A stretch of DNA of 39,106 bases from Chloroflexota bacterium (GTDB taxonomy: Bacteria; Chloroflexota; Anaerolineae; Aggregatilineales; J027). Under the pieces are notes generated by a model, which saw only the letters and a program-made list of their open reading frames with translations, ran no database searches and was not told the DNA's origin. Positions 14,041 through 21,114 of this stretch are shown one piece after another. The stretch covers positions 1 to 39,106 of the forward strand of contig RFGP01000037.1 in the NCBI GenBank assembly GCA_003697365.1, written 5' to 3'. Every line of letters begins with the position of its first letter. The first letter of the stretch is position 1. The position numbers and the translations under genes are program-made.

Positions 14041-15204
14041 ATGGCACAATCAGAAAGTAGCCGTCCGATCATCTTAGATGATAAATCGGTTCGTGCGAAG
14101 AAATCATCACCAACAGCAGATGCTATCCGCCAATTTAGGCAAAATCGAGCATCCGTTGTTGCCTTCATAATTATTGTATTTTTCATCTTCATAGCACTTA
14201 CAGCACGTTTATGGACAGCGGTCGGTTTGCTTGACCACCCGCGTGGTTTTCGTGCAGTCCATGACATTTTACCATCTGGTTGGGATAACACGACAGTAGA
14301 CCCATACCCCGATCCGGGACACTGTGCTCGCGATAATTTAAACAAGCCAGAAGATTGGTGTTCTCTGCTTTCTCCAGAAGAACAGGCACGCTTTCCAGAT
14401 AAGTGCTTGCTCTATCCACCTCTAACAGCAGAGCGCATTGAACAACGGCAATGGTGTTATCTGCTAGGTGGTGATCAGCAAGGGAAAGATTGGCTGACCC
14501 AAACAGTTTATGGGGCACAGGTTTCACTGGCAGTAGCTTTAATTGGGTCTTCTGTGAGCTTTATTTTTGGCATCATCTATGGTGTCATCGCTGGCTATTA
14601 TGGTGGGCGCTTAGATAATGTCATGATGCGCTTTATTGACTTCTTGTATGGTATTCCCGGCCTTGTTATTATCATTCTAATGCAGGTGTTTTTCCGCCAA
14701 GTTTCTAATCAATACGGGAATGAAGAAGGCATCATCGGGTTAATCATTGAAATTGATAACGCGCTCGGCGGTCTGTTCTTCTTATTTATAGCCATTGGTT
14801 TATTGAGTTGGATCGGTATGGCGCGTTTAGCACGTGGGCAGATTCTCTCCTATCGCGAGAAGGAATTTGTAGAAGCAGCGCGTGCTGTTGGCGCTAGTGA
14901 CCGTCGTATCATTTTTGTGCACTTGTTGCCTAATGTTATCGGCCCGCTCATTGTTGCTGAAACCCTAACCATTCCCGGTTATATCTTCACCGAAGCATTT
15001 TTGAGTTTCATTGGTTTAGGTGTACAGCCCGGCACGCCCAGTTGGGGCGAAATGATTAGCCGTATTCGTAACCAAGGCGGATTGCTTTCTAACCGACATA
15101 TTGTTATTGTGCCTAGTGTTGCACTGGTAACCTTAACCTTGGCCTTTAATTTCTTTGGTGATGGCTTGCGTGACGCGCTTGATCCGCGCTTACGTGGTAA
15201 ATAA
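14041..15204 (+). CDS. oppC: Peptide ABC transporter permease OppC/DppC with enlarged extracytoplasmic loop
   Basis: The 387-residue protein is an OppC/DppC-type permease. It has a cytoplasmic N-terminus with RQFRQNRASVVAF, then TM1 (about 38-58). The canonical LLGGDQQGKDWLTQTVYGAQ and the remaining five helices start at about 141. The EAA loop that contacts the ATPase reads EAARAVGASDRRIIFVHLLP, and the C-terminus is DALDPRLRG. Typical OppC proteins have about 300 residues; the surplus is a loop of about 85 residues after TM1 (60-147) holding four cysteines (95, 107, 122, 139) and exposed outside the membrane, where disulfides are possible. GAGGAG lies eight bases before the ATG. Confidence 0.94.
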   Translation: MAQSESSRPIILDDKSVRAKKSSPTADAIRQFRQNRASVVAFIIIVFFIFIALTARLWTAVGLLDHPRGFRAVHDILPSGWDNTTVDPYPDPGHCARDNLNKPEDWCSLLSPEEQARFPDKCLLYPPLTAERIEQRQWCYLLGGDQQGKDWLTQTVYGAQVSLAVALIGSSVSFIFGIIYGVIAGYYGGRLDNVMMRFIDFLYGIPGLVIIILMQVFFRQVSNQYGNEEGIIGLIIEIDNALGGLFFLFIAIGLLSWIGMARLARGQILSYREKEFVEAARAVGASDRRIIFVHLLPNVIGPLIVAETLTIPGYIFTEAFLSFIGLGVQPGTPSWGEMISRIRNQGGLLSNRHIVIVPSVALVTLTLAFNFFGDGLRDALDPRLRGK

Positions 15205-15223
15205 TTTAATCGACATAAACACC

Positions 15224-15256
15224 CCAAACTCCTCATCTTTAAATCTAGGAGTTTGG
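15224..15256 (+). other. Intercistronic hairpin between oppC and the lipoprotein gene
   Basis: CCAAACTCCT at 15224-15233 pairs perfectly with AGGAGTTTGG at 15247-15256, a 10-bp stem with a 13-base loop. It is not followed by a T-run, so it is more likely an mRNA stability or processing element than a terminator. Confidence 0.55.
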
Positions 15257-15294
15257 TAAATAGATGGTTATACAATAGGAGACTTCGTAAATCC

Positions 15295-17367
15295 ATGAAA
15301 AGAGTATTACTCGTTGCTGTACTTATGCTCTTGGGATCAGTAGCATGTTATTCTGATAGCCCTTTATGGGTTTTTGGTGTAACTGATACCCCACCAACAG
15401 CAACCTTTTTACCGACTCCAGATTATGACAAATACCCAGCAAAATTAGGGCAAGACCAAGTTGCTTTAGCACCGATTCCATCAGGTGGGCCAACACAGCC
15501 ATTCTTCTTTGTAACAAGATTGCCAGAAGAGCTCATCTCTGGTCTACGGAACGCTAGCGGCTCTTGTGATTATGGTTCTGAGCTAGAAGTACTATATATT
15601 GGTCACAAATGGGAGAGCTTTAGCGGCACTGTATTTATTGATGATATTGTATTAACTAGCGCAGAGAATACCGAAACTGTCTTTGATTTTGAGACACCAG
15701 TCGATTGGGCTGCTGAAGACGATGGTATTGGTGCAGACGATGAGAAAGCCCAGATCAGAAATAATGTTGATTTCAATTCCTTGAAATTAAGCAATAGTGA
15801 TGTTGATGTTTCTAATAGCACTTCTGTATTAGGACTTGACATTCAATTTTCCGGCGAAGATTGGGAAGCAAGTTTTGCAACTAAGTTTGAACCCCCGCAA
15901 GATTGGTCAACATTTGATGCAATTAGCTTCAATGTATTTACTCCTTCTAATGCGAGTAAATTTTATGCCATTCCCTTTATTCGCACAGCAAATAGTGAAC
16001 AAGCCTTTGCGTCCGATAAAATTGCGTTGAATTCAGGGCTTTGGACAGAAGTAAGTTTTGATCTTAGTGCTATAGAAGATCGCAGCAATATCCAAGCCTT
16101 TGGGGTAAAAATTGGCGCTAACCCAACTAATACCTACTACTTGGTAGCTTGCTCTGGTACTGTGGGTTGGGCAAATGAAACTCGTATTGCTGGGCCTGTA
16201 TTATTCTTGAAAGGTCAAAGTGCTCAAACGCGACCAATTAGCGAACGTGGTGCTCCCATTCCTGAAGGTCAACCCTTCATGATTCATGGTGGCGCAGAAC
16301 CACCAATTGGCCCATTGCCTGCTTCTAATCAATGCCAAGTTGGTGAAGTAGTCGACATTATTGGTGTATCGTCTACAAATCAGCAAATTTGGTACAACAT
16401 CCGTTGTGATGGTACTGAAGGATGGGTCACTGAAGATCGTCTATTTGGGCCGCTCTTCTTACCCGCTGTGAATGGCATTGGTGTTGTTGTTGCTGAAGAA
16501 GGTATAACCGAAATTCCCCTAACAGCGAATGCTGGTGAAGTTTCTGATGACAATCCACCAATTGGTACTTGCCCAATTAATACAGCAATCACAACATTAG
16601 ATTTTGAGACAATCCTCGTTGGTGAAGAACAAGTTCCCTATTATCTCATTAGTTGTGGTGACCTTGTTGGGTGGACAACTCAAGACCCTCTACTAGAAAT
16701 TCCTTATCCTCTCTCCACCTATGTCATCGTTATTGGCCCCGAAGGGTCTGATGAGATATTGGTAGAGGCTGAAAGCGAAGGAAACGCAGAGACTACAGAC
16801 GAAATAAGCGATACACCTGTAGAAGATGTGGCACTACAAGACGAACAAAGTTTTATTGATCCACGCTATCGCCCTGCAACACTAACAAGTGAACCAGCAC
16901 CTGCTACTGAGGATAATATCATCGGAGAATGCCCTAGTAGTACTGTTGTTCAATTAGAAGATGTGGCTTCTAATTTTGGGCTAATTTACTATCAAGTCAC
17001 TTGTGGTGAAGTGACTGGTTGGATTGATGCGCGCAATTTGCCCAACAGCGTGTTATATCCACCCGGCCAAACTATTTGGTTTACACAACCCACCTTCGAT
17101 GCACAACGCCGTCGTCAAAGAGGTTTTGCAATTGATGCAACGCCTTCGCAAACTTCACCCGAAATTGGACAATGTGCTTTATTCCAACCCGTTGAAGTAT
17201 TGCGAGTTATATTTGAACAACGCGCACTCAAGCGTCTAGGTTTCCGTTTGTACTATGAGGTTAGCTGCACCAATCTTGACGGTGAACCCATTGTTGGTTG
17301 GCAAGAACTTGAGCTGCATACCGACAAGATAGCTACACAAAATCCCTTACAAATTTTTGGTAGTTAA
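15295..17367 (+). CDS. SH3b-repeat lipoprotein with nested carbohydrate-binding-like domain
   Basis: The 690-residue protein starts with a lipoprotein signal (KRVLLVAVLMLLGSVAC, lipidated Cys18) and a Thr/Pro linker (PPTATFLPTP). Five SH3b-like repeats follow, each with a cysteine pair: 91/286, 347/371, 426/454, 545/570 and 627/658. The first pair is far apart because a beta-sandwich of about 171 residues (103-274) sits inside that repeat; it carries FSGTVFIDDIVL and WTEVSFDLSAI, as in carbohydrate-binding modules. Another linker lies near 490-540. SH3b repeats often bind cell wall or protein ligands. Placement between oppC and oppB suggests an accessory or ligand-capturing role for the transporter. 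An upstream in-frame TTG at 15253 lies in a hairpin, so the ATG before the signal peptide is chosen. It is not a recognisable SBP_bac_5 protein. Confidence 0.8.
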   Translation: MKRVLLVAVLMLLGSVACYSDSPLWVFGVTDTPPTATFLPTPDYDKYPAKLGQDQVALAPIPSGGPTQPFFFVTRLPEELISGLRNASGSCDYGSELEVLYIGHKWESFSGTVFIDDIVLTSAENTETVFDFETPVDWAAEDDGIGADDEKAQIRNNVDFNSLKLSNSDVDVSNSTSVLGLDIQFSGEDWEASFATKFEPPQDWSTFDAISFNVFTPSNASKFYAIPFIRTANSEQAFASDKIALNSGLWTEVSFDLSAIEDRSNIQAFGVKIGANPTNTYYLVACSGTVGWANETRIAGPVLFLKGQSAQTRPISERGAPIPEGQPFMIHGGAEPPIGPLPASNQCQVGEVVDIIGVSSTNQQIWYNIRCDGTEGWVTEDRLFGPLFLPAVNGIGVVVAEEGITEIPLTANAGEVSDDNPPIGTCPINTAITTLDFETILVGEEQVPYYLISCGDLVGWTTQDPLLEIPYPLSTYVIVIGPEGSDEILVEAESEGNAETTDEISDTPVEDVALQDEQSFIDPRYRPATLTSEPAPATEDNIIGECPSSTVVQLEDVASNFGLIYYQVTCGEVTGWIDARNLPNSVLYPPGQTIWFTQPTFDAQRRRQRGFAIDATPSQTSPEIGQCALFQPVEVLRVIFEQRALKRLGFRLYYEVSCTNLDGEPIVGWQELELHTDKIATQNPLQIFGS

Positions 17368-17377
17368 CACGGATAGC

Positions 17378-17407
17378 ATATGGGGTGGGCTTAGTCTTGC
17401 CCCATAT
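17378..17407 (+). other. Intercistronic hairpin between the lipoprotein gene and oppB
   Basis: ATATGGGG at 17378-17385 pairs perfectly with CCCCATAT at 17400-17407 around a 14-base loop. No T-run follows. With the hairpin at 15224-15256 it brackets the lipoprotein gene. Confidence 0.5.
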
Positions 17408-17443
17408 CAAATGCAGATTTAGAGGATAATTGAGGGAATTTTA

Positions 17444-18961
17444 ATGAAGATCATTCAAAATATTTTGAACACTATAGTGAATGCCATTGGCGGCCCCAGT
17501 ATGTTAAAGTTTTTGGTGCGACGCACATTGGCCGCTATCCCGGTATTATTTGCTATCATGGTGGTTACCTTCGGGCTCACGCGCATTATGCCCGGTGGGC
17601 CTTTCGATGCCGTCGGACAGCGTAGTATGCCCGCTCACATTCGTGCCCAGCTAGAAGAGCGTTATGGGCTCAATAAAGCGCTTTTCTTTGACACCCCTAG
17701 CAATGCAAATGGCGCAGAAGTACAGTGGGGCAAACAAGCCTATGCCAAAGGCGGCTTTGGTGAAGATGTTAGCGGTGTTTACGCTGAACTTGACAACACG
17801 GGCGTTCGTTTTCGCGGAACGTACAATTTAATTGTATGGGACGATGAAGCTGAACGCCTTGTTGAATATGAGCGTAATCCATTTAAGAATTGGGTAGAAG
17901 AAAACAGCGATCTTGTCTATACCGTCAATACTTTAAGCACCCTCAGCACTTCAAGCCTCTCTATGCCAACGGGTATTGGGGGGGTAGCAAATTATATGAC
18001 CGCGACAGGTGTCACTAACCATTCATTACAAGAACTCGCTGAATACAACGAGGACTGTCGCCCATATAAGCAATATCCCGGTTGGGCAGTATTAGCCACT
18101 CGTGAAGAATGCAAAACGTCTTCAGGTAACGTGAGTTTTGTCGTGAATCGTTCTAAAGACGTGTTCCGCATCGATGCCCTAGACTCACAATTCTGGAATT
18201 ATGTATGGGGCGTATTGCACTTTGACTTTGGCCCTTCACTAAACATTGCTGACCGCGAAAGTCTACAGGTGCGCGATGAAATTTTGCTACGCCTACCTGT
18301 TTCAATGGAAGTTGGTGTTATAGCAGTGATTTTTGGCTTTTCGCTTGGCATTCCGCTTGGTGTATTGGCTGCAATTTATCACAATACCTTTATTGACTTC
18401 ATCGCAACATTTTTTGCAGTTTTAGGGCAATCAACACCTAATATCGTGTTAGCTCCTATCCTCATTATTATCGTGGCGTTAGAATTACAGTGGCTCCCTG
18501 TTCCTGATGGCTCAGGATGGAAAGACCCATTCTTTAGCCGAACCCATCTTGAAAACCTGATCCTTCCCACCATTGCACTTGGTACGGGAATGAGTGCGAG
18601 TATTGCGCGTTTAACTCGTGCTAGCCTGTTACAAGTTTTGAATGAAGACTATATTCGTACGGCAAGAGCTAAAGGATTGCGTGAACGTACTGTTATTTAC
18701 CTACACGGGTTGAAGAATTCTCTAATTCCTGTTGCGACAATTTTAGGGCCACTATTGGCAGGTATTTTAACAGGTACATTCATCATTGAGCTGATTTTCG
18801 TCATTCCCGGCTTAGGTGAAACTTTCATCACCAGCGTGGGCGCACGTGACTATACAATGATCATGGCAGTAACGCTTTTATATTCAGTGTTCTTGATCAT
18901 TGGAAATATCATGGTCGATGTGATTTATACATGGCTAGACCCGCGCATTCGTTTTGACTAA
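17444..18961 (+). CDS. oppB: Peptide ABC transporter permease OppB/DppB with large extracytoplasmic insertion
   Basis: The 505-residue protein is an OppB/DppB permease. The family N-terminus MLKFLVRRTLAAIPVLFAIM is at 20-39, followed by MPGGPFDAV and ERYGLNKAL. The core resumes at about 247 with DSQFWNYVWGVLHFDFGPSL and five more helices. The EAA loop is YIRTARAKGLRERTVIYLHGLKN and the end is VIYTWLDPRIRFD. Most OppB proteins have about 310 residues. The extra 165 residues (81-246) lie in the first extracytoplasmic loop and contain two cysteines (205, 223). Residues 1-19 precede the family's normal start; the ATG at 17501 is an alternative, but the GAGGG site favours 17444. It is the last gene of the opp operon, before a strong terminator. 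Confidence 0.93.
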   Translation: MKIIQNILNTIVNAIGGPSMLKFLVRRTLAAIPVLFAIMVVTFGLTRIMPGGPFDAVGQRSMPAHIRAQLEERYGLNKALFFDTPSNANGAEVQWGKQAYAKGGFGEDVSGVYAELDNTGVRFRGTYNLIVWDDEAERLVEYERNPFKNWVEENSDLVYTVNTLSTLSTSSLSMPTGIGGVANYMTATGVTNHSLQELAEYNEDCRPYKQYPGWAVLATREECKTSSGNVSFVVNRSKDVFRIDALDSQFWNYVWGVLHFDFGPSLNIADRESLQVRDEILLRLPVSMEVGVIAVIFGFSLGIPLGVLAAIYHNTFIDFIATFFAVLGQSTPNIVLAPILIIIVALELQWLPVPDGSGWKDPFFSRTHLENLILPTIALGTGMSASIARLTRASLLQVLNEDYIRTARAKGLRERTVIYLHGLKNSLIPVATILGPLLAGILTGTFIIELIFVIPGLGETFITSVGARDYTMIMAVTLLYSVFLIIGNIMVDVIYTWLDPRIRFD

Positions 18962-19161: not shown

Positions 19162-21114
19162 ATGCAACATCTTGGACGCTTGGCAATTTTTAGCCCAGAC
19201 GGTCCTATACAGAACTTTTTCATTGAGAAAGAAATTGTTGCAATTGGCCGTTCTTCCGGCAACGATCTTGTTTTAGATCGGCATGGCATATCTCGTTACC
19301 ATGCAAGTCTCACCCTCAATGAAACAGGTAATATCGCTGAATTACGTGATTTGGAATCAGTTAATGGCACCTATGTAGATGGGCTTCGATTAAAGCCGAA
19401 TGAAGCTCGGATTTTACGCGGCGGTGAAGAAATTCAAATTGGTGATATACGCTTGATTTTTCATCCTGCCGCAGATGACACATCCGACCAAACAGTACAG
19501 GTACATCTCCAAGACTTTGATGCCCCCCATTTATCTGTTGCCTTAGAAGGCCCAGACATTGCAGTTACCCCCGGCACGCACGCGCCAGCAATCATAAGAC
19601 TTTCCAACAAAACGCAAGAAAAAATGCGCGTTGTTTTGCGTATTGAGGGAGTGCCTCCCCAATGGGCACGCTTAGATCAAACAGAGTTTGAACTATTGCC
19701 AGAGCAACAGCGCGAAATCGGCATTAATTTCAAGCCAGCGCGGCGTTACGATACTAAACCCGGTTTTTACAATATCACCTTACATGTTGGCACTGTAGAT
19801 ACAAACTATCCCCCTATTGAGCTGCGCACTCGTCTACAGATTCTGCAGTTTAACGGTTATGGCGCAGTCTTAGGCACGCCTCTCATTGAAAATGAAGGAA
19901 TATTTAAGTTATACATTCATAATCAAGGAAATGGCCCTTTGCCATTGCGCTTTTTGGGACGTGATGCAGAAAATCTACTCAATTATGTTATTGAACCTTC
20001 ACAGATTGTATTAGAAGCGGGACAACGTTTGACGGTGCAGGGGCAAGTGTCAGCCAAACAACGCCCATTATTAGGAAAGCCACAGCGTATTAATTACGAT
20101 ATTCTCACCCAATCACTTAGCCCTTCTGCGTTTATAGCCCCCGTAAGTGGACAAATTGAGATAGCACCTGCTTTGTCTAATTGGAAACTTCCGATAGGAA
20201 TAGGGGTTGTGCTTTTTCTAGCGCTCTTAGTTTTATTAGGAGTTTTATCCTCTCAAATGACCTCAGACTCGGATAGTGCTGAAGCGCAGCAACCACAAAT
20301 CAGTCGCTTTGCCCTAAATGGCAATCAATCTGATAATCTCGTAGTTTCGGTGAATGATCCGATTTTAGTGCAGTGGCAAACACAAAATGCGGCTTTCATT
20401 CGCCTCAATGCCCAAAGTGAAAACGGGGATACAGTCCTTTATACATTGGCTGCCCAAGTTCCACATAGCCACGTCCTTCAATTTTCTGATGTTGGACGTT
20501 ATGCGGTATGGCTAGAAGCGCAAAATGAGGAAAAGCAAGAATTCAGCCCTATGCTCAATGTGGAAGTACTACCACTCATACAGCTCAAAGTTTATAGCGT
20601 TAGCACTTCTACAACTCAAGCATCAGCGGTATTGTATCGCGGGGTCAATGGGCAGTATATCATTGTTGAGTGGAAAGCCAACTGGGGAAATAAGACAGTC
20701 CCCTCACCGCTAGACATTATTATTGGTGATCAGGTCTTCCCCATTACAGATATGGAGGGCCAACTCTCATTGGCAGCTAATGGGCTACAAAACCAATTAG
20801 GGGGTGTGGAAGTTTCGTTAGAAGCGAATTCTCAGATATTACACACTGTCATCTTACCAACGGCATATCCAGAGTGCATTAGTCAAAATGATATTTTGCT
20901 CTATGATGCCCCTGACCCCAACAGTTCAGCGATACCCATCATGGCAAACACGCCTTTTCAGATTGACGGTCAAAATAACGAACGTTGGATACGTGTCATT
21001 TCGCCAACACAACAAACAACTATTGGCTATTGGGGATGGCTTTCTCCTGAGAGTCTCATAGACATAATCTGCCCTATTGATTATGTTGAACTAGAACAAA
21101 TTCCTGAAACATAA
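19162..21114 (+). CDS. Membrane protein with N-terminal FHA domain and extracytoplasmic SH3-like tail
   Basis: The 650-residue protein starts with a forkhead-associated (FHA) domain (about 1-101) keeping the phosphothreonine-binding residues: IGRSSGNDLVLD (28-39), ISRYHASL (43-50) and NGTYVDG (68-74). Two Ig-like beta-sandwich segments follow (about 115-335; for example GVPPQWARLDQTEFELLPEQ). A single transmembrane helix lies at about 343-366, then another Ig-like segment and a C-terminal SH3-like region (572-640) with GYWGWLSPESL and flanking cysteines resembling the SH3b lipoprotein repeats. Topology is probably FHA inside, C-terminus outside. It could read Ser/Thr kinase signalling at the membrane; no kinase gene is in the window. 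AAGGG precedes the ATG. Confidence 0.8.
   Translation: MQHLGRLAIFSPDGPIQNFFIEKEIVAIGRSSGNDLVLDRHGISRYHASLTLNETGNIAELRDLESVNGTYVDGLRLKPNEARILRGGEEIQIGDIRLIFHPAADDTSDQTVQVHLQDFDAPHLSVALEGPDIAVTPGTHAPAIIRLSNKTQEKMRVVLRIEGVPPQWARLDQTEFELLPEQQREIGINFKPARRYDTKPGFYNITLHVGTVDTNYPPIELRTRLQILQFNGYGAVLGTPLIENEGIFKLYIHNQGNGPLPLRFLGRDAENLLNYVIEPSQIVLEAGQRLTVQGQVSAKQRPLLGKPQRINYDILTQSLSPSAFIAPVSGQIEIAPALSNWKLPIGIGVVLFLALLVLLGVLSSQMTSDSDSAEAQQPQISRFALNGNQSDNLVVSVNDPILVQWQTQNAAFIRLNAQSENGDTVLYTLAAQVPHSHVLQFSDVGRYAVWLEAQNEEKQEFSPMLNVEVLPLIQLKVYSVSTSTTQASAVLYRGVNGQYIIVEWKANWGNKTVPSPLDIIIGDQVFPITDMEGQLSLAANGLQNQLGGVEVSLEANSQILHTVILPTAYPECISQNDILLYDAPDPNSSAIPIMANTPFQIDGQNNERWIRVISPTQQTTIGYWGWLSPESLIDIICPIDYVELEQIPET

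Follow-up and report, generated by a model that had tools for sequence, protein, structure and literature searches.

We found that about 510 bp coding for one full carbohydrate-binding module (CBM) fold sit in a seven-residue hairpin loop of the first SH3b-like repeat of an old lipoprotein in a Chloroflexota genome (coordinates refer to the window, the whole stretch of 39,106 nucleotides that was analyzed). The guest domain is circularly permuted, with its usual last strand standing first, and is a permuted relative of the Pfam family PF21253 rather than a standard member. The best explanation of the whole, in which we place high confidence, is that one rotated period derived from a tandem CBM array was inserted into the loop of repeat 1 after the genus had split from its family. 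The genome of the window is referred to as G000 and the second species of the genus (MAG TC_152, loci L010 and L081) as G001; in our collection the family comprises ten genomes and the genus only these two.

The host lipoprotein and its insert

The host gene (15295–17367, plus strand) codes for a secreted lipoprotein with five SH3b-like, cysteine-paired repeats, as recognized from its open reading frame, lipobox, Pfam matches and orthologues with oppC upstream. Its start codon is ATG, with an alternative TTG upstream at 15253, and the lipobox reads LGSVA followed by C18. Pfam scores are 25.4 bits for SH3_3 (below the cut-off of 27) and 21.8 bits for GW (just above the cut-off of 21). The cysteine pairs are 91/286, 347/371, 426/454, 546/570 and 627/658, giving spacings of 195, 24, 28, 24 and 31 residues for repeats 1 to 5; the original prediction, made from the sequence alone, gave the same values for repeats 1, 2, 3 and 5 and erred by one residue in repeat 4 (25 instead of 24). 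Excising 513 bases does bring the spacing of repeat 1 to 24, as it had claimed, and insert-free orthologues have 24–26. Both halves of repeat 1 align with uninterrupted orthologues: the first (15565–15609, plus strand) runs from Cys91 to HK105 (CDYGSELEVLYIGHK, compared with CVFDDELEVLYAGHK in G002), and the second (NPTNTYYLVAC286SGTVGW...) occupies 16120–16212 on the same strand.

The gene lies between an oppC-type peptide permease gene upstream (14041–15204, plus strand; Pfam BPD_transp_1 and OppC_N) and an oppB-type one downstream (17444–18961, plus strand; BPD_transp_1), both recognized as conserved neighbors by synteny as well as by Pfam. We found oppC upstream in all 22 orthologous loci examined and oppB downstream in 21 of the 22, the exception being at a contig end. 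Such a constant position between the two permease genes points to a role in peptide transport, in which the lipoprotein may be an accessory of the adjoining oligopeptide ABC transporter. The gene order oppC–lipoprotein–oppB (14041–18961) is kept across two families. Both permeases have unusually long cysteine-containing segments (OppB has 505 residues, with the transport domain starting only at residue 302), and these extra segments might be a docking site for the lipoprotein. Further downstream, 19162–21114 codes for an FHA-domain protein with an SH3b-like C-terminal region, and in G001 and G005 its homologues adjoin the same operon.

The insert (WESF...GVKIGA, 170 residues) spans 15610–16119 on the plus strand, approximately residues 106–275 of the lipoprotein, so that the limits first proposed (15598 and 16116) were off by one to four codons from the best fit. 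It is missing in the complete orthologues outside the genus and present in the second species. Its first part (WESFSGTVFIDDIVL; 15610–15654, plus strand) corresponds to the usual last strand of the domain, matching HMM positions 144–159 of conventional-order units and predicted as a strand (E50–62, pLDDT ~90). A linker, TSAENTE (15655–15675, plus strand), follows as the counterpart of the inter-unit linker of tandem arrays, based on alignment with array periods, and the remainder of the CBM from the first to the next-to-last strand (TVFDFE...GVKIG; 15676–16116, plus strand) is supported by PF21253 at 30.6 bits, by HMM positions 3–140 of 159 and by alignment to the mannanase structure 1WKY. Against its cut-off of 27, PF21253 (Mann_GBD_bact) scores 28.6 bits with the whole protein and 30.6 bits with the insert alone, residues 71–172 of the segment as first delimited matching profile positions 26–127 of 143. 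For the diverged G001 protein, no Pfam family was reported at an E-value of 0.01. Solved structures related by sequence are mannanase 1WKY, TmCBM27 (1OF3), 6TN6 and CsCBM27 (1PMH), and the insert is a galactose-binding-like CBM related to the solved CBM27 and 1WKY mannanase CBMs. That a beta-sandwich domain is nested in an SH3b-like repeat, as the original prediction had it, is thus borne out by the orthologue alignment, PF21253 and the structure model. Both inserts also carry an extra segment of ~15 residues that is absent from array units (NNVDFNSLKL at 15730–15790 of the window; QNVDFNELRA in G001, locus L010).

Strand order and function of the guest domain

The permutation is most directly seen with a conventional-order profile built from 12 CBM units. 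The G000 insert matches this profile as two pieces: the main part covers HMM positions 3–140, and the N-terminal FSGTVFIDDIVL, standing first in the insert, covers positions 144–159. When the FSGTVFIDDIVL strand was moved to the end in silico, the G000 insert gave one continuous match over HMM 3–159 with 84.2 bits, compared with 69.8 bits for the whole sequence in native order (65.5 for the main part) and at most 70.4 bits in 20 trials in which the strand was shuffled before rejoining. For G001, the rejoined order scored 57.5–58.9 bits versus 40.0–41.7 in native order and at most 47.1 with a shuffled strand, so that rejoining gains 14–19 bits over native order across the two inserts. The two ends proposed for the insert, FSGTVFIDDIVL and QAFGVKIG, indeed correspond by homology to the final and penultimate strands of CBM units, and joining them gives the conventional order that had been foreseen, scoring as one full domain. 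Conversely, a permuted-order profile aligned to TmCBM27 as two swapped pieces, with profile positions 41–108 on chain residues 24–89 and positions 6–18 on residues 161–173, where the second piece is weak by itself (1.9 bits) and counts by its position only.

Tandem CBM units in related genomes (three in a GH5 mannanase and four in a C47 protein of G008, and two in G067) repeat with a period of 163–168 residues and show the same order across the unit boundary (GVKVG-SGST-AFEGDVFIDN). Read from within the loop that joins the last two strands, an array period therefore has the order of the insert and about its length (170 residues in G000 and ~182 in G001). The suggestion that the permuted unit came from a tandem domain array agrees with this, and we regard an array origin as well supported.

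An AlphaFold2 model of residues 60–306, for which the input alignment included array periods set in permuted register, reached a mean pLDDT of 81.8 and a pTM of 0.73. In this model FSGTVFIDDIVL forms a strand of 13 residues with a pLDDT of ~90; a conventional-order unit modeled as a control reached 85.0 and 0.82. On realignment, model residues 67–219 superimposed on 1WKY 340–475 (Z 12.2, rmsd 2.5, 129 residues), and the conventional control on 1WKY 340–490 (Z 21.0, rmsd 1.6, 142 residues). The coverage of CBM11 (1V0A) was 3–154 for the insert model and 3–172 for the control. A Foldseek search with the composite model returned no match below an E-value of 0.001. The predicted fold fits solved CBMs but ends one strand short at the C-terminus, the alignments stopping early as the permutation proposal would have it, and the N-terminal strand is the sole candidate in the model for the missing one. 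Pairing of strand E50–62 with E207–216 is deduced from the strand assignment and the alignment end points, and is to be taken as a predicted contact.

What the guest domain does in the lipoprotein may differ from the role of its relatives. In the alignment, the aromatic residues of the fold's core persist in both inserts, whereas columns 24, 25, 132 and 134, aromatic in array units, are non-aromatic in both; columns 25, 132 and 134, which are W in most units, have become G, E and A in G000 and L, Q and V in G001. These lost aromatics would correspond to the sugar platform, and with both inserts lacking the exposed aromatics of array units, mannan binding is doubtful. Judging from these residues, the guest would most likely be a spacer or protein-contact module and not a mannan binder. 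Continued binding of a beta-mannan-like glycan, with a putative sugar-anchoring role for a transporter-linked lipoprotein, would fit relatives that are mannanase CBMs and the presence in the genome of a mannanase-type gene carrying this kind of CBM, but with the aromatics at columns 25, 132 and 134 lost while those of the core persist, we consider it unlikely.

Origin of the insertion

The donor is a member of this CBM family. The only PF21253 locus of the G000 genome, a mannanase-type gene, is split over contigs C182 and C109, the ends of which share exactly 99 bases inside a CBM unit (L075:1–99 and L046:1–99). Contigs from de Bruijn assemblies end in shared bases at repeats, and the CBM array of this mannanase may have been collapsed at the C182/C109 ends. 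The CBM of this locus is ~36% identical to the insert over 104–108 residues; with a single CBM locus at this identity and no DNA-level copy, a recent donor within the genome was rejected. No near-identical donor of the insert was found. Separately, we observed that the four-CBM protein of G008 (L042:5134–9525) has an SH3b domain between its units and adjoins a DUF4062 protein ending in the same kind of CBM. In a phosphoesterase-like protein of G168 (L076:3009–4976; LLIVSDLHLSEG, GHTHN), residues 92–221 form a CBM-like segment, apparently inside the enzyme domain and possibly another nested CBM.

The junctions show how little was lost. The host loop from LYxG to YYL has seven residues in most uninterrupted orthologues (LYAGHK-SETE-IYYLVTC in G002; LYIGRLNTDTVYYLIAC in G005), and the array loop from GVKVG to AFEG has four. 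The filled site of G000 has HKWE (four residues) on the left and ANPTNT (six) on the right, with HEFN and PDPART in G001, which means that 10 of the 11 possible loop residues (7 + 4) are kept and the insertion was therefore almost loss-free. At the left site, uninterrupted G002 has LYAGHK, G000 has LYIGHK and G001 has LYIGHE. HK is probably derived from the host because the empty site of G002 matches and H or K is absent from this position in all array units, and the left junction thus probably lies about two codons downstream of the ATTGG proposed as the breakpoint.

The copies of ATTGG at 15598–15602 and 16111–16115 are 513 bases apart as originally described, but the proposal of insertion at a 5-base microhomology found no support. 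Shared runs of at least 5 bases between the junction zones (±9 nt) arise in 60% of synonymous-codon shuffles and in 32% of random zone pairs; a run of five on the single best diagonal occurs in 1.2% of random pairs, but this diagonal was chosen because it matched. Both strands of the window (1–39106) contain 154 copies of ATTGG, compared with 105 expected from dinucleotide shuffles. G001 has TTGGCC twice at the same place, and the repeated bases at the junctions of both species are mostly accounted for by a conserved Gly codon preceded, in host and guest alike, by a codon for Ile or Leu. With shared bases not beyond chance, conserved (I/L)-Gly codons and an old insertion, microhomology-mediated insertion is not supported. 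A target-site duplication by a mobile element seems unlikely too, given that the ATTGG pair has nothing distinctive about it and that we came across no separate element.

In our preferred reading, a one-period stretch would have come from a CBM array, such as one in a mannanase gene of the lineage itself or of a relative. Its insertion would have kept the reading frame and cost either loop almost no residues. The rotation would have been tolerated or selected because it brings the guest ends next to each other at a beta-hairpin, and with adjacent ends guest and host could fold independently. Two more specific routes are each rather improbable, and about equally so. Recombination within the array could have excised a one-period circle that was opened at another phase on integrating into the lipoprotein gene. 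An insert about one period long (170 and ~182 versus 163–168 residues), the near-complete retention of host and guest loop residues (10 versus 11 expected) and the existence of near-identical tandem units in relatives all fit such a circle, but two independent cuts would lead to the same outcome under selection for a complete fold whose ends are adjacent, and at this divergence no junction scar is left. If true, it would be a general one-step route to nested permuted domains, with the phase set by the point at which the circle opens. Alternatively, a conventional array of at least two units could have been inserted and then trimmed on both sides to one rotated unit, which follows the usual permutation-by-duplication route (PMC3320104) and allows intermediates. 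However, neither genome has an intermediate with an extra unit, and trimming from either side would have had to halt at one and the same strand.

Insertion of a single rotated period also agrees with the distribution of the insert. Among the ten genomes of the family, only G000 and G001 carry it, in the same loop; all complete orthologues outside the genus (G002, G003, G005–G009 and those aligned from f4, another family of the order) have an uninterrupted loop, and the G004 orthologue is known only as a fragment from outside the insertion site. In a host tree with the insert removed, the two carriers group together (100/99) inside the uninterrupted family, and gain is therefore the parsimonious polarity. 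In the CBM tree, the two inserts group (94/75) apart from the array clades, which fits a single event. The lipoproteins of G000 and G001 are 46% identical overall and 36% within the insert, showing an old insertion. It took place after the genus split from its family. Searching genome contigs with the whole lipoprotein gave no match, an alignment-based search of genome contigs returned only family members already seen, and viral contigs scanned with the permuted-order alignment yielded no relative. Each homologue is either free of the insert or has it in the same permuted form, and none showed the region as one continuous known domain, an outcome the original prediction had named as decisive against it. 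An ancestral insert lost from all other lineages is very improbable, as it would have had to disappear precisely on each of the remaining branches of the family as well as in the outgroup family. Less credible still, to the point of being negligible, is a chimeric assembly joined at the two copies of ATTGG: the window does come from a fragmented MAG of 220 contigs, but a strongly diverged copy of the insert (36% identity) lies at the same position of the same operon in a second species, both species have an open reading frame here, and GC3 is equal in insert (0.296) and host (0.290). The second species thus excludes misassembly, a shared assembly error not being credible at this divergence.

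Comparison with known nested and permuted domains

To our knowledge, few natural domains are both permuted and nested, and swaposin is the textbook case of a nested permutant. Swaposin is a permuted saposin inside plant aspartic proteinases (the plant-specific insert) whose permutation is traced to a tandem array (PMC3320104), and it is the closest precedent for the nested CBM. Both are permuted copies of a tandem-array domain nested in an unrelated host. Unlike the helices of swaposin, however, our guest is a beta jelly roll in a bacterial, SH3b-like lipoprotein, of which uninterrupted orthologues and array relatives are known in the same bacterial family.

Other carbohydrate-binding-type beta sandwiches interrupt host domains as well, including CBM112 in a GH26 catalytic domain (PMC13357471) and a CBM inserted in GH5 (PMC9063844). 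The host of our guest, in contrast, is not an enzyme, the guest has lost its exposed aromatics, and the searched text on CBM112 mentions no circular permutation. The guest shares its sequence family and fold with PF21253, CBM27 and the 1WKY CBM, whereas these solved relatives and the array units have the conventional strand order. A survey of domain insertions found that inserts have close ends (median 14.3 Å) and treated circular permutation separately (PMC13114784). With fewer than 200 residues and ends that should lie close, our guest resembles the surveyed inserts, but its close ends arise by rotation. This suggests a rule in which a jelly roll rotated to open at a hairpin gains adjacent ends and becomes fit for insertion. 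Since one bacterial lineage offers related tandem arrays, the empty site and, in two species, the filled one, the context is unusually complete, and the idea of permutation from a tandem array, as put forward for swaposin, becomes testable by sequence.
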